Positions 33,750 to 38,648 of a stretch of DNA of 64,000 bases are shown piece by piece (the first letter of the stretch is position 1; each line of letters opens with the position of its first letter). This stretch comes from Candidatus Soleaferrea massiliensis AP7. Lineage in GTDB: Bacteria; Bacillota; Clostridia; Oscillospirales; Ruminococcaceae. The notes below the pieces were generated by a model. The model saw only the letters and a list, made by a program, of their open reading frames with translations. It was not told the DNA's origin and made no database searches. The stretch spans positions 1 to 64,000 of the forward strand of contig NZ_CCYH01000038.1 of the NCBI RefSeq assembly GCF_000820765.1, read 5' to 3'. The position numbers were made by a program, and so were the translations under genes.

Positions 33750-34454
33750 TTATTCCTCGATCTCTCGGATAATTCCCATGGGCGTTTGCTCATGACATTG
33801 ACCTAATGGATTGTCTTTCAGAATGGCTACCAGTCTTTCGATATCATTCTGATCACCGGAATAGCCCAATATATTTCCACCAATATCGTTGATATCGGTG
33901 ATTGCTACCGGAAACCCAATTTTTTCTGACAGTTCATGTGCAACCTTATCAGGCTGTGCAGGTGTTAAGACTACATACTCATTATATGGAGGTAATGTTC
34001 CACTGGTCGGTCCGTCGATTCCACGGGCCTGTTCACCTGCGATCTTGTAGAACCAGCCGCGTCTGCGAAACAATTTGCCAATGGCCGATATAAATGCTGC
34101 AAATAATATTCTGATCGTACCGCATTCCCGAAGCGCCATCTCCATGGTTTCCGGCATTGCCAAGCCTATTCCGTAGGGTGTCTTGACAACAAACCTGCTT
34201 AAAAACACCGCCAGCCTTCTCGGCTTGATGTCCTTCATGGGAATCGCCCGGTGCTGCGTACATGCTACTATTTTTTCCGTGATAAATAAGATATCGCCAT
34301 CCTGCAAAAATTCGACCGCGTATTTGTCTACAACTTCGTCGATCTTGTCACTGTCGGTAATGACATGGGTTTTGATGGGTAGCCGCTGATATTTTTTACC
34401 ATCTACTTCTATAACTTCAACTTTGCCTTCATTGGCCTTTAAAATCTCGCTCAC
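33750..34454 (-). CDS. CofE-like protein (coenzyme F420-0:L-glutamate ligase family)
   Basis: 234 aa, GTG start with GGAGGG six nucleotides upstream. The N-terminus (RLPIKTHVITDSDKIDEVVDKY, DILFITEKIVA) and the segment GIDGPTSGTLPPYNEYVVL match the F420_ligase family. GFPVAITDINDIGGNILGYSG is the conserved C-terminal part. No F420 biosynthesis genes are in the window and Clostridia generally lack F420, so it probably ligates an amino acid to another acceptor. Its codons are AT-richer than the neighbours, which suggests transfer. Confidence 0.75.
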   Translation of the reverse strand: MSEILKANEGKVEVIEVDGKKYQRLPIKTHVITDSDKIDEVVDKYAVEFLQDGDILFITEKIVACTQHRAIPMKDIKPRRLAVFLSRFVVKTPYGIGLAMPETMEMALRECGTIRILFAAFISAIGKLFRRRGWFYKIAGEQARGIDGPTSGTLPPYNEYVVLTPAQPDKVAHELSEKIGFPVAITDINDIGGNILGYSGDQNDIERLVAILKDNPLGQCHEQTPMGIIREIEE

Positions 34455-35610: not shown

Positions 35611-35815
35611 AAGTAATATAGAACCCTGCCATGTGCGTGAGTGCAGCTTTTATAATCCAACACATTTTTCCAAGGGAATTTGACTCTTGGTGTGAAGTGC
35701 AGACCTCCCTATTTATTAGGACGAAGGGAGCGTGCAGCTCCAAGGCATTTACCCACCTGTCGAGAGACGGGTTTTAACTCGCTGTGCAACGGCTTGGCGG
35801 GGGTTATATTATAAA
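35611..35815 (+). ncRNA. ssrS: Probable 6S RNA (SsrS)
   Basis: About 200 nt with its own promoter and terminator and no ORF. The two ends pair: TAATATAGAACCCTGCC (35614-35630) with GGCGGGGGTTATATTA (about 35796-35811), giving a long rod. Interior parts (CCAAGGGA...TCTTGG, CTCCCT...AGGGAG) fold into further helices around a large central region. Size, rod shape and closing stem fit 6S RNA, which binds the SigA RNA polymerase as a promoter mimic. The call rests on architecture; a covariance search was not possible. Confidence 0.7.
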
Positions 35816-35818
35816 AAC

Positions 35819-35844
35819 ACCGGGTCTTTGCACTCGGTTTTTTT
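35819..35844 (+). terminator. Terminator of the 6S-like RNA
   Basis: ACCGGG (35819-35824) pairs with CTCGGT (35833-35838) with one wobble, followed by seven T. Confidence 0.85.
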
Positions 35845-35865: not shown

Positions 35866-35895
35866 TTGACAACGCCCACCAGGGTATGCTATAGT
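35866..35895 (+). promoter_or_regulatory. Promoter of the ABC-F leader
   Basis: TTGACA (35866-35871), 18-bp spacer, TATAGT (35890-35895). Transcription would start near 35902, giving a leader of about 245 nt before the ABC-F gene. Confidence 0.82.
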
Positions 35896-35927
35896 ATGGT
35901 CATCATACAGATGTCAGGAGTGAAAGC

Positions 35928-35948
35928 GTGTATCATTTTTCTTGCTAG
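35928..35948 (+). CDS. Six-codon leader peptide ORF of the ABC-F gene
   Basis: AGGAG (35916-35920) is seven nucleotides from GTG 35928. The ORF reads (M)YHFSC and stops at TAG 35946-35948. Its last codons contain the ATTTTTCTTGC element (35935-35945) that takes part in the attenuator. Short leader peptides like this sense drug-stalled ribosomes in other ABC-F and erm systems. Confidence 0.65.
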   Translation: MYHFSC

Positions 35949-36089
35949 ATCAAACAAACCGGATATCATCGTTCCAAGGAATCCTTCTTGGGGCTTTATT
36001 GGGTATCCGTCTGCAAGAAAAAACGCGCTGCATTCCATGATCTGAAGGATGGGGAGATCTCTTCTCCGTCTGTCATATTTGTCATGTCT

Positions 36090-36124
36090 GAGCTGCAGGA
36101 TTTTTCTTGCGGCTCTTATTTTTT
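36090..36124 (+). terminator. Intrinsic terminator inside the ABC-F leader
   Basis: GAGCTGCAGG (36090-36099) pairs with CTTGCGGCTC (36106-36115), including G-U pairs, around ATTTTT. A T-rich tract (36116-36124) follows. It ends only 21 bp before the ABC-F start codon, so it must be overcome for expression. Confidence 0.88.
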
Positions 36125-36145
36125 GTATGACAGGGGGAAATTCCA

Positions 36146-37729
36146 TTGTCCATGATCAGCGTACAGAACCTCACCTTCCATTACGAAAGCAACTATGAGA
36201 ACATCTTTGAAAACGTCTCGTTCCAGCTTGACACCGACTGGAAAACCGGCTTTATCTCCCGCAACGGCCGGGGGAAAACCACCTTTTTAAAGCTGCTGAT
36301 GGGAGAATTCCCGTACAGCGGCCGCATCGAAAGCAGCGTCAGCTTCGATTACTTTCCGTTCCCGGCCGAGGATACAAAACGGCCGGCGATAGAGCTGCTC
36401 AAGGAGGTCATCGCCCCTTACAAGGTTTGGGAAGACCGTATGGAACAGCTTTTGGATTCAGATGCACCCGAAGACCAGCTGGCATATTCCACGCTGCTCC
36501 AGCGGTATCTGGACCATGACGGTTACACCATCGATGAGCAGATTAAGTGTGAGGCCGGAAAGCTCGGCGTCTCTTCCGACGCTTTGGCCCGCCCGTTTTC
36601 CACGCTCAGCTACGGGGAGCGCACCAAGCTTCTGCTCGGCGCGCTGTTCCTGAAAAAGAACAACTTCCTGCTGATCGACGAGCCGACCAACCATCTTGAC
36701 CTTGCGGGCAAACAGGCGGTCGCCGGTTATCTGGCTTGCAAAAAGGGATTCATCCTGGTATCGCATGACAGGGATTTTCTGGACCGGACGGTGGACCACA
36801 TCCTTTCGATCAACCGCGCCGGCATCGAAATCCAAAAGGGCAATTTCACCACCTGGAAGCAGAACCGCGACAACATTGACCAATTTGAACGGGATGAGAA
36901 CGAAAAGCTCAAAAAAGAGATTCGAAAGCTGACCGGCGCGTTCCGGCGCACGGCGGGATGGTCCGATCAGATCGAGAAATCCAAAATCGGGGAGCACTCG
37001 GCCGATCGCGGCTTTGTCGGGCATCAGGCCGCGAAGATGATGAAGCGCGCAAAATCCATTGAACAGCGCCGGGAACGCGCGCTCGACGAGAAACAGTCGC
37101 TTCTGAAAAACACCGAAATTGTCTCCGCTTTAAAAATTCATCCTCTGACCTTTTCGAAGGAAAAGCTGGTGGAATGCAGCCATCTGACCCTGCGCTATGG
37201 GGAGCGGACGGTCGCAGAGGACCTGAATTTCTGCGTACGGCGCGGTGACCGCATTGCACTGCAGGGGCGAAACGGATGCGGTAAATCGAGTGTGCTCAAG
37301 CTGATCCTCGGTGAAACGATTGCATACAGCGGCACCCTGCTGGTTTCGAGCGGTCTTGCCATCTCCTATGTACCGCAGGACAGCTCGTTTCTGAAAGGAA
37401 GCCTGCGCCAATTCATTGCCGATGAGCGGATCGACGAAAGCCTGTTCAAGGCAATCCTTCGAAAGCTGGATTTCTCCCGCAACCAGTTTGACAAGGATCT
37501 GGAAGCATACAGCGAAGGACAGAAGAAAAAGGTCCTGCTTGCCGGCAGCTTGTGCCGGCAGGCGCACCTTTATATCTGGGATGAGCCGCTCAACTACATC
37601 GATATCTTTTCTCGCATGCAGATCGAGGAACTGATCACCTCCTACCAGCCCACCATGCTGTTTGTAGACCATGACACGGCGTTTCTGCAGGGAGCGGCAA
37701 CACAGATCATCACATTGCAGCAAATATAG
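36146..37729 (+). CDS. ABC-F ribosomal protection protein, Lsa-like
   Basis: 527 aa, TTG start with AGGGGG eight nucleotides upstream; an ATG two codons later is possible. Two ABC domains: Walker A NGRGKTT (about 40) and NGCGKSS (about 375), signature LSYGERTKLLLG, Walker B FLLIDEPTNHLD and LYIWDEPLNYID, and the H-loop LVSHDRDFLD. There are no membrane segments. The interdomain linker (about 250-330) is basic and helical, as in ABC-F proteins that displace drugs from the ribosome. N-terminal sequence DTDWKTGFISRNGRGKTTFLKLL strongly recalls Lsa proteins (lincosamide, streptogramin A, pleuromutilin resistance). The drug profile is inference. Regulated by the upstream attenuator. Confidence 0.9.
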   Translation: MSMISVQNLTFHYESNYENIFENVSFQLDTDWKTGFISRNGRGKTTFLKLLMGEFPYSGRIESSVSFDYFPFPAEDTKRPAIELLKEVIAPYKVWEDRMEQLLDSDAPEDQLAYSTLLQRYLDHDGYTIDEQIKCEAGKLGVSSDALARPFSTLSYGERTKLLLGALFLKKNNFLLIDEPTNHLDLAGKQAVAGYLACKKGFILVSHDRDFLDRTVDHILSINRAGIEIQKGNFTTWKQNRDNIDQFERDENEKLKKEIRKLTGAFRRTAGWSDQIEKSKIGEHSADRGFVGHQAAKMMKRAKSIEQRRERALDEKQSLLKNTEIVSALKIHPLTFSKEKLVECSHLTLRYGERTVAEDLNFCVRRGDRIALQGRNGCGKSSVLKLILGETIAYSGTLLVSSGLAISYVPQDSSFLKGSLRQFIADERIDESLFKAILRKLDFSRNQFDKDLEAYSEGQKKKVLLAGSLCRQAHLYIWDEPLNYIDIFSRMQIEELITSYQPTMLFVDHDTAFLQGAATQIITLQQI

Positions 37730-37923: not shown

Positions 37924-38283
37924 ATGAAAAAGAAACACAATCTGGCTTACGGCCTTATCGGCTTTTTCGGCGGCATTCTGAACGGCCTGTTCGGCGCCGG
38001 CGGCGGTATGGTCGTCGTGCCGTTTTTGGAAAAAACCGGCCTTGAGCCGCAGAAATCCCACGCGACCTCCATCTCCATCATCCTGCCGCTCTCCATCTTC
38101 AGCGTCGTGCTCTATCTGATGGGCGGCAGATTTTCCATTCAGGACGCACTGATCTTCCTGCCCTCCGGCCTGGTCGGCGCGGCGGTCGGCGCATTTCTGC
38201 TGCCGAAGATCCCGAATAAATGGCTGCGCAAAATCTTTGCCGTCCTGATTGTCATCTCATCGATAAGGTTGTTGTTAAAATGA
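37924..38283 (+). CDS. TauE/SafE-family membrane protein, N-terminal half-type subunit
   Basis: 119 aa from the ATG at 37924. About four transmembrane helices with the family glycine motif GGILNGLFGAGGGMVVVPFL near the start and QKSHATSISIILPLS after it. A full TauE/SafE anion exporter is about 250 aa with two such halves. This gene holds one half, and its stop overlaps the next gene's ATG (ATGA). Confidence 0.88.
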   Translation: MKKKHNLAYGLIGFFGGILNGLFGAGGGMVVVPFLEKTGLEPQKSHATSISIILPLSIFSVVLYLMGGRFSIQDALIFLPSGLVGAAVGAFLLPKIPNKWLRKIFAVLIVISSIRLLLK

Positions 38284-38648
38284 TCGGTCTCATTATCGCC
38301 GCGTTTTTTGCCGCCATCGCCGGATCGCTCGGTCTGGGCGGCGGCGGCATCCTGCTTTTATATCTGACCGCCTTTGCGGACTATGAACAGCTGAAGGCGC
38401 AGGGAATCAATCTGATTTTCTTTATCCCCTGCGCCATCATCGCGCTGATTATCCATGCAAAAAATAAACTGATCGAATGGAAGGCCACATTGGTCTGCGG
38501 CATCACCGGGCTTGCCGGCGTCGCGCTCGGCTTTTATCTGGCCGGGCTGTTCGATCCCAAATGGCTGGGCAAGGCCTTCGCCGTATTTCTGCTGTTTCTG
38601 GGTCTGAAAGAGCTGTTCCACAGGGAAAAAGATCAAAAGAAACCGTGA
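38280..38648 (+). CDS. TauE/SafE-family membrane protein, C-terminal half-type subunit
   Basis: 122 aa. Four transmembrane helices with the second half-repeat motif AAIAGSLGLGGGGILLLYL and EQLKAQGINLIFFIPCAI. It overlaps the upstream half by four bases, so the two are made together and probably form a heteromeric exporter of sulfite, sulfonate or similar anions. The substrate is not predictable. Confidence 0.88.
   Translation: MIGLIIAAFFAAIAGSLGLGGGGILLLYLTAFADYEQLKAQGINLIFFIPCAIIALIIHAKNKLIEWKATLVCGITGLAGVALGFYLAGLFDPKWLGKAFAVFLLFLGLKELFHREKDQKKP

Follow-up and report, generated by a model that had tools for sequence, protein, structure and literature searches.

Two leaders with the logic proposed here, those of the ABC-F genes vmlR and cplR, have been proven by experiment (PMC9226507, PMC10201436), and attenuation controlled by an upstream open reading frame (uORF) has also been reported for msrD. 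Like the gene in the window (the whole stretch of 64,000 nucleotides of Candidatus Soleaferrea massiliensis AP7 DNA that was analyzed), vmlR of Bacillus subtilis encodes an ABC-F protein of the kind that protects against lincosamides and pleuromutilins. Its leader likewise has a very short uORF in an anti-antiterminator hairpin and a terminator before the gene, and induction by drugs acting at the initiation stage has been proven there (PMC9226507). The vmlR uORF differs in having three codons, MIN, as judged from its description (PMC9226507), and in the window, unlike in vmlR, the last uORF codons form a pairing strand, A, that is copied in the terminator. The cplR leader of Clostridioides difficile shares with the window a clostridial ABC-F gene, a short uORF, a terminator and two exclusive folds, but it serves another ABC-F subfamily, has the uORF MR[I/M], and holds the Shine-Dalgarno (SD) sequence of the gene within its terminator hairpin (PMC10201436). 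lsaA of Enterococcus faecalis lies in the Lsa branch, as the window gene does, and differs in its computed uORF, MAGN, which is known from the published peptide (PMC10201436). For are5sc and tiaA of Streptomyces coelicolor, start-codon stalling on a short uORF was toeprinted with a lincosamide, a streptogramin A and a pleuromutilin, although these are actinobacterial ARE5 genes with other uORFs (PMC12421871).

The uORF of the window, MYHFSC, matches none of MIN, MR[I/M] and MAGN. While the class of mechanism is already established, the leader family described below, which precedes the genes of many relatives from gut bacteria, its peptide consensus and its presence at lsa(E) were not found in the literature searched or in Rfam. 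In that literature, from which most subscription journals are absent, we saw neither this leader nor attenuation of lsa(E) described and met none of six uORF peptide strings, and neither the window leader nor the lsa(E) leader matched an Rfam family at gathering score.

The leader of the Lsa-like gene in the window

A sequence-only reading of this DNA had proposed a promoter, a six-codon MYHFSC ORF with an SD and an intrinsic terminator upstream of an ABC-F gene, and all of these are present where it placed them (Table 1). Its statement that the terminator ends 21 bp before the start codon holds if the gene starts at TTG 36146. We consider this start more probable than ATG 36152 because many homologs begin MSLI... 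or MSQI... and an SD lies 8 nt upstream. The gene product passes the curated cut-off of 380 bits for ribo_prot_ABC_F (NF000355, 458.1 bits) and stays below the curated cut-off of 750 bits for Lsa (NF000167, 648.9 bits), and it is called Lsa-like here rather than filed as Lsa. Lsa(A) (7nhk) is the solved protein closest to it in sequence.

Table 1. Features of the leader and of the ABC-F gene, in window coordinates
Feature	Position	Strand	Description	Basis
Promoter	35866-35895	+	TTGACA 35866-35871, TATAGT 35890-35895, 18-nt spacer, TG before the -10	11/12 consensus matches
uORF SD	35916-35920	+	AGGAG, 7 nt before GTG	Sequence; similar SD text in relatives
uORF	35928-35948	+	GTG TAT CAT TTT TCT TGC TAG, M-Y-H-F-S-C	Sequence; same uORF type in relatives
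Strand A	35936-35945	+	TTTTTCTTGC, last uORF codons	Conserved complement to A'
Strand A'	36013-36022	+	GCAAGAAAAA, candidate partner of A (terminator on) or A2 (antiterminator)	Sequence, folding, relatives
Intrinsic terminator	36090-36124	+	Hairpin 36090-36115, then T-rich tail TTATTTTTT	Hairpin -17.6 kcal/mol
Strand A2	36101-36110	+	Second copy of A, in terminator loop and 3' arm	Sequence, repeat search
ABC-F gene SD	36132-36137	+	AGGGGG, 8 nt before TTG 36146	Sequence
ABC-F gene	36146-37729	+	Lsa-like ABC-F ribosomal protection gene, 527 aa, probable TTG start	NCBIfam models

A search of both strands of the 64-kb window returned exactly two copies of the 11-mer ATTTTTCTTGC, as had been claimed, at 35935-35945 and 36100-36110; 0.03 copies were expected, and none of 100 shuffles reached two. 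The middle element that had been said to pair with either copy, GCAAGAAAAA, proved to complement the final ten bases of each copy exactly. Sequence and folding thus both allow mutually exclusive anti-antiterminator and antiterminator pairings in this leader, which spans about 250 bases between a 6S RNA gene and the ABC-F gene and includes a long hairpin. The RNA from 35900 to 36130 was predicted to fold with -94.5 kcal/mol (z -8.9), a stability equaled by none of 200 shuffles, and the predicted fold contains A:A' and the terminator together. Two candidates in the leader were set aside as chance: an Rfam match to RcsR1 over the terminator (25 bits, cut-off 60) and a longer ORF of 42 codons in another frame (VKACIIFLARS...), which starts at GTG 35920 with the SD abutting its start, whereas relatives keep the uORF frame.

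The neighboring DNA holds several further features. The 6S RNA gene directly upstream, at 35620-35807 (Rfam RF00013, 72 bits), has its own terminator-like hairpin at 35819-35838, ahead of the ABC-F promoter. Downstream, at 37927-38648, two adjacent half-size TauE/SafE genes overlap by about 64 bases; the C-terminal half of the Pfam model is matched by the first and its N-terminal half by the second. On the minus strand, 33750-34454 encodes a protein with a modest match to F420-0:gamma-glutamyl ligase (47 bits, cut-off 25).

We think it very probable that the window leader is a ribosome-mediated transcription attenuator before the Lsa-like ABC-F gene. Without drug, ribosomes would finish the six codons and leave, and A would pair with A' in the long hairpin; the terminator would then form and RNA polymerase would halt ahead of the ABC-F gene. 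A PTC-blocking drug would hold a ribosome at the uORF start or the next codons, with most of A covered. A', left free, would pair with A2 in the terminator and transcription would enter the ABC-F gene, whose product would then clear the drug. We infer, in this scheme, that the uORF is translated, that lincosamides, pleuromutilins or streptogramin A stall the ribosome on it and that read-through follows.

Folding with the uORF blocked, the check that the sequence-only reading had suggested, releases the middle strand and makes the terminator less probable in the prediction, but only partly. For the free RNA of the window, the probabilities of A:A' and of the terminator were both 0.99. A ribosome footprint at the start codon abolished A:A' and left the terminator at 0.63 with its hairpin just complete, at 0.91 ten bases later and at 0.98 with the gene start included. 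A footprint at codon 3 gave 0.55, 0.82 and 0.98 at the same three RNA lengths, and with a footprint at codon 6 the terminator stayed at 0.99. When the same masks were applied to the 87 related leaders described below, the start-codon mask lowered the terminator by more than 0.2 in 37, the codon-3 mask in 35 and the codon-6 mask in 23, compared with 0 of 82 for each of two control masks; in the other 50 of the 87 the start-codon mask lowered it by 0.2 or less. Terminators for this comparison were found by a lenient rule (87/87), and those of L052, L080, L103 and L157, which look wrong by eye, were kept. As equilibrium folding, these results support which way the predicted switch goes and that it prefers early codons, but not how strong it is; in the window the modeled switch is partial.

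Recurrence of the leader and complementarity of its strands

The homologs came from whole genomes and from a single scan of genome contigs (best 80 of 92), and the closest ABC-F homologs in this collection are about 60% identical to the window gene. Ultra-short, SD-linked uORFs of the Cys-ending type were present in 63 of 120 homologous leaders, compared with 0 to 3 of 120 in each of 20 rounds of shuffling. The pattern behind these counts (4 to 9 codons, an SD, and final residues [SAT]-C plus at most one more) was drawn up after a first look at the leaders. Longer SD-linked ORFs in the homologous leaders showed no common peptide by eye.

A gene-blind DNA pattern, made up of A, a stop codon and A', was also searched for in 394 genomes of the order and 398 of the phylum. 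It occurred at 32 and 38 places, respectively, versus 8 and 1 for the reversed pattern. An SC-type uORF with an SD of at least 4 was found at 29 of the places that were returned as loci (17 in the order and 12 in the phylum, where several places were listed without a locus). Lsa-like ABC-F genes lie downstream in 27 of these 29 (16/17 and 11/12), the 16 order loci including the window itself and two leaders of the protein-based set. At locus L176, the ABC-F match extends over the first 24 residues only. Locus L167 has the uORF MRNFSC, A' and a terminator, followed from about 1500 by only the first codons of an Lsa-like gene, and the DNA after this fragment does not match an Lsa-like gene. L142 is an orphan leader on the minus strand (about 1500-1650) with promoter-like sequence by eye, the uORF MHKFSC and A'; there is no ABC-F gene within the locus, and the next long ORF, 457 nt on, encodes an unrelated 375-aa protein. 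Two further matches, L143 (MFSC) and L150 (MREALFSC), have an SD of three only and no ABC-F gene and were counted as chance.

The comparisons below use 87 distinct leaders, 62 of them from the 120 and 25 from the pattern searches and plasmids. A promoter with at least 9 of 12 consensus matches stands upstream of the uORF in 71 of the 87, versus 10.8% of mononucleotide shuffles. The uORFs start with ATG (76), GTG (9) or TTG (2) and stop with TAA (44), TGA (34) or TAG (9), closing at the Cys codon or one codon after it. The Cys codon is TGC in 87/87, and the Ser codon is TCT or TCC in 86/87, the remaining leader having GCT (Ala). The wobble base of the Ser codon and its partner in A' form C-G in 35 leaders, T-A in 32 and T-G in 20; C-A does not occur among the 87.

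When 52 leaders were aligned, the only helix returned by RNAalifold was the 9-bp A:A', with 97.2% of its cells paired. This alignment omitted eight leaders of the same gap range: L040, L041 and L049, which are about three near-identical sequences, and L002, L110, L117, L118 and L119, some of them weak, which were left out for no good reason. Once every leader with an A-A' gap of 42-77 nt was included (60 leaders), 96.2% of the cells were paired, compared with 47-70% after the strands had been shifted against each other by one, two or three columns. In the remaining 27 of the 87 the gap falls outside this range; an ungapped comparison of all 87 gave 728 of 783 paired cells (93.0%), a value to be read with the fact that A' had been chosen for complementarity. 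Dealing out the A' letters anew still left 94.7% of cells paired, although the observed value was reached in 0 of 500 shuffles, and double changes occur at only one of the nine pairs, the Ser wobble position (13 cells). The agreement between A and A' is, on these sequences, mainly conserved complementarity rather than covariation. In a tree-aware covariation test, the differing changes all went in the expected direction but too few were independent to reach significance (median p 0.25); the 27 label changes in that test are an overcount because three genomes had been entered twice under different locus ids (L146, L155 and L156). In 74 of the 87 leaders, the sequence downstream of A' contains a complement to it that outscores shuffles (p ≤ 0.05), by eye mostly in the 3' arm of the terminator. 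These 87-leader counts retain two leaders whose A' was picked inside the terminator (L052 and L103) and one whose A' is apparently misplaced (L045).

The spread of the leader was read from the listed part of a FastTree protein tree with 154 rows. There, most subclades of Lsa-like proteins have it, and one subclade of 17 to 18 homologs (support 94 and 88) lacks it. Near the window it is patchy, being found in 7 of 19 rows of the smallest well-supported group that extends beyond the window itself, in which two of the 12 leaderless rows are duplicates; several of the window's nearest relatives carry variant uORFs. The idea that the family keeps the short ORF together with its pairing elements was borne out in many homologs, but 58 of the 120, one of them a duplicate leader (L067), fall outside the final uORF set. 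Terminator-like hairpins are present in 40 of these 58, and the situation named beforehand as speaking against the attenuator, a terminator without the short ORF or its complement, is in part encountered. Only nine of the 40 gave A, A' and an SD-linked uORF in the first search; further outside-set leaders with all three came out in the later peptide-blind test. Given the subclade without it and the homologs with only a hairpin, the leader is, as far as these sequences tell, lost or replaced in places. The comparative data otherwise support a ribosome-sensing attenuator with exclusive strands, and they establish, at the sequence level, its parts, their conservation, their complementarity and a fixed spacing between the uORF start and A.

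Ribosome position, the uORF peptide and rival explanations

In 84 of the 87 leaders the distance from the first base of the start codon to the end of strand A is 18 nt, in a search that allowed 12, 15, 18 or 21 nt; this is about where the front edge of an initiating ribosome would lie. An initiating ribosome on the vmlR uORF gives a toeprint 16 nt downstream (PMC9226507), so one held on the start codon here would mask the greater part of A. Initiation, or the step just after it, is the stage at which lincosamides, pleuromutilins and streptogramin A act (PMC9226507, PMC12421871), and the spacing would suit a ribosome stalled at that stage, as by these drugs.

The sensing peptide had been thought unusual. 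This was not upheld: MYHFSC is ordinary within the leader family, and the uORF peptide is probably not the sensor and probably carries little information, because relatives change or truncate it yet keep the strands. The last uORF codons would be conserved because they form strand A. At least 11 of the 58 outside-set leaders keep the design with other peptides or shortened uORFs. L113 reads MYISR, with TTTCCCGC, A' GCGGGAAG and terminator CTTCCCGC, and other variants are MHITR (L112), MINASR (L053), MIYISR (L126), MKKSSR (L004), MYRISR (L021), MRITA (L121) and MIGFSL (L129). In three leaders the ORF closes before A, namely L047 (MRK-stop-TCTTGC), L018 (MRK-stop-ATCCTGC) and L014 (MF-stop-TCTTTCCTGC), and here the distance from the start codon to the end of A is 18, 19 and 19 nt, respectively.

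We also applied a test blind to the peptide, which considered bases 8-20 after each SD-linked short-ORF start with a threshold of p ≤ 0.02. It was passed by 80 of 117 leaders, 22 of them without a Cys ending, compared with 9 of 102 reversed leaders, 4 of 111 shuffled leaders and 2 of 88 stretches of downstream DNA. Each p is that of the best candidate ORF per leader and so is optimistic, the controls giving the false-positive rates. Eight of the 22 non-Cys matches are doubtful (MCMPAV twice, MKNR, MSKNFCR, MIQD, MNIKP, MKK and MMQK). The threshold was missed by L018, L115, L116, L122 and L123 and, among Cys-type leaders, by L002, L019, L110 and L117.

These variants bear on the explanation that a nascent M-x-x-F-S-C peptide and drug together arrest the ribosome at a defined codon, the peptide sequence being selected as in macrolide leaders. 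Although Ser-Cys is nearly invariant (in uORFs that were found by that ending), codons 5 and 6 are only those that fit A', and position 4 can be F, I, T, L, A or V across the 87 leaders. The strands persist, moreover, with MYISR, MHITR, MINASR, MIYISR, MRITA and MIGFSL, and also where the ORF stops after MRK or MF and A lies outside it. We therefore regard peptide-specific stalling as unlikely, even with the poorer induction of the MRK variant of the VmlR leader relative to MIN (PMC9226507). The peptide or codons 2-3 may have some influence, because 84 of the 87 leaders have one of R, I, K and Y as their second residue. The Cys codon that ends the uORF in 87/87 leaders, a set chosen by that ending, might instead recall a Cys or Ser attenuator of the trp-leader type. 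There is a single Cys codon only, the design is kept in relatives without Cys or without Ser, and the regulated gene encodes a ribosomal protection protein, not a biosynthetic one, all of which makes such an attenuator exceedingly improbable.

The leader could also act mainly on translation, hiding the ribosome-binding site of the ABC-F gene instead of stopping transcription. CplR combines both modes (PMC10201436), and in Sedimentibacter and near relatives (L031-L034 and L094) the uORF is just three codons long, MIR, and is accompanied by A, A' and an A2 that lies beside the SD of the gene; a terminator scan of these five leaders found none in four. When they were folded, however, the predicted opening of the SD rose in three of five and not in the other two, and the MIR leaders are perhaps, on this modeling, a translational version of the switch. 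The window itself has a standard terminator between A' and the gene, and the layout with A2 in the terminator is common to many related leaders, so a mainly translational mode is rather improbable there. Repeats occurring by chance around a constitutive terminator, with no regulation, would be a very improbable reading, as exact repeats are not expected by chance and the uORF, A, A' and A2 recur in the family far above controls. Transcription attenuation by a ribosome held early on the uORF remains our preferred reading of the window leader.

The lsa(E) leader and the reach of the family

On sequence evidence, the leader family also stands before the mobile lsa(E) gene in Enterococcus, Listeria and Staphylococcus. 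The leader of plasmid-borne lsa(E) (L159) has the uORF MYNFSC, A, A' and a terminator with A2, and a mask on its start codon lowered the predicted terminator from 0.97 to 0.01. It belongs to the same family as the window leader by sequence but differs in its distance to the gene, the uORF start lying 363 nt before the annotated lsa(E) start, and in an extra ORF. This extra SD-linked ORF (GTG, MIDNDTMSFMTKSLQSWITL) was noted between the terminator and lsa(E), within 1110-1500 of L159. The lsa(E) leader DNA matched 111 plasmid records, 102 of them over at least 80% and 106 of them from Enterococcus, and PLSDB resistance predictions class lsa(E) under lincosamides, streptogramins and pleuromutilins. 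Another plasmid gene with the leader is from Monoglobus. In a Paenibacillus plasmid relative (L161), A, A' and A2 can be made out by eye and the ORF is framed differently; the leader was not seen at lsa(B) or at the Paraclostridium and E. raffinosus relatives.

In one of the 87 leaders (L100), A' follows an ATG and reads ATG GCA GGA AAG TGA, or MAGK. A' preceded by ATG would in general read ATG GCA GGA AAN, so the lsaA leader, with its MAGN, and the window leader may be related; this is our guess from the sequences. A wider picture, to which as a whole we give a little less than an even chance, is that the leader family is old in the Lsa branch, that its peptide is a by-product of RNA pairing, the position of the ribosome being sensed and not its product, that lsa(E) resistance would thus be drug-inducible, and that the MAGN of lsaA may be an A' strand read as an ORF.

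Whether peptide or position is sensed is a question raised by the authors of the VmlR and CplR studies (PMC9226507, PMC10201436), and the natural variants of this family, with changed peptides and matching strands or with two- and three-codon uORFs, could tell the two apart. With the leaders described here, resistance under uORF control would take in many clostridial Lsa-like genes as well as lsa(E), and inducibility of lsa(E) by drug, if real, could lead to resistance being under-called when no inducer is present.
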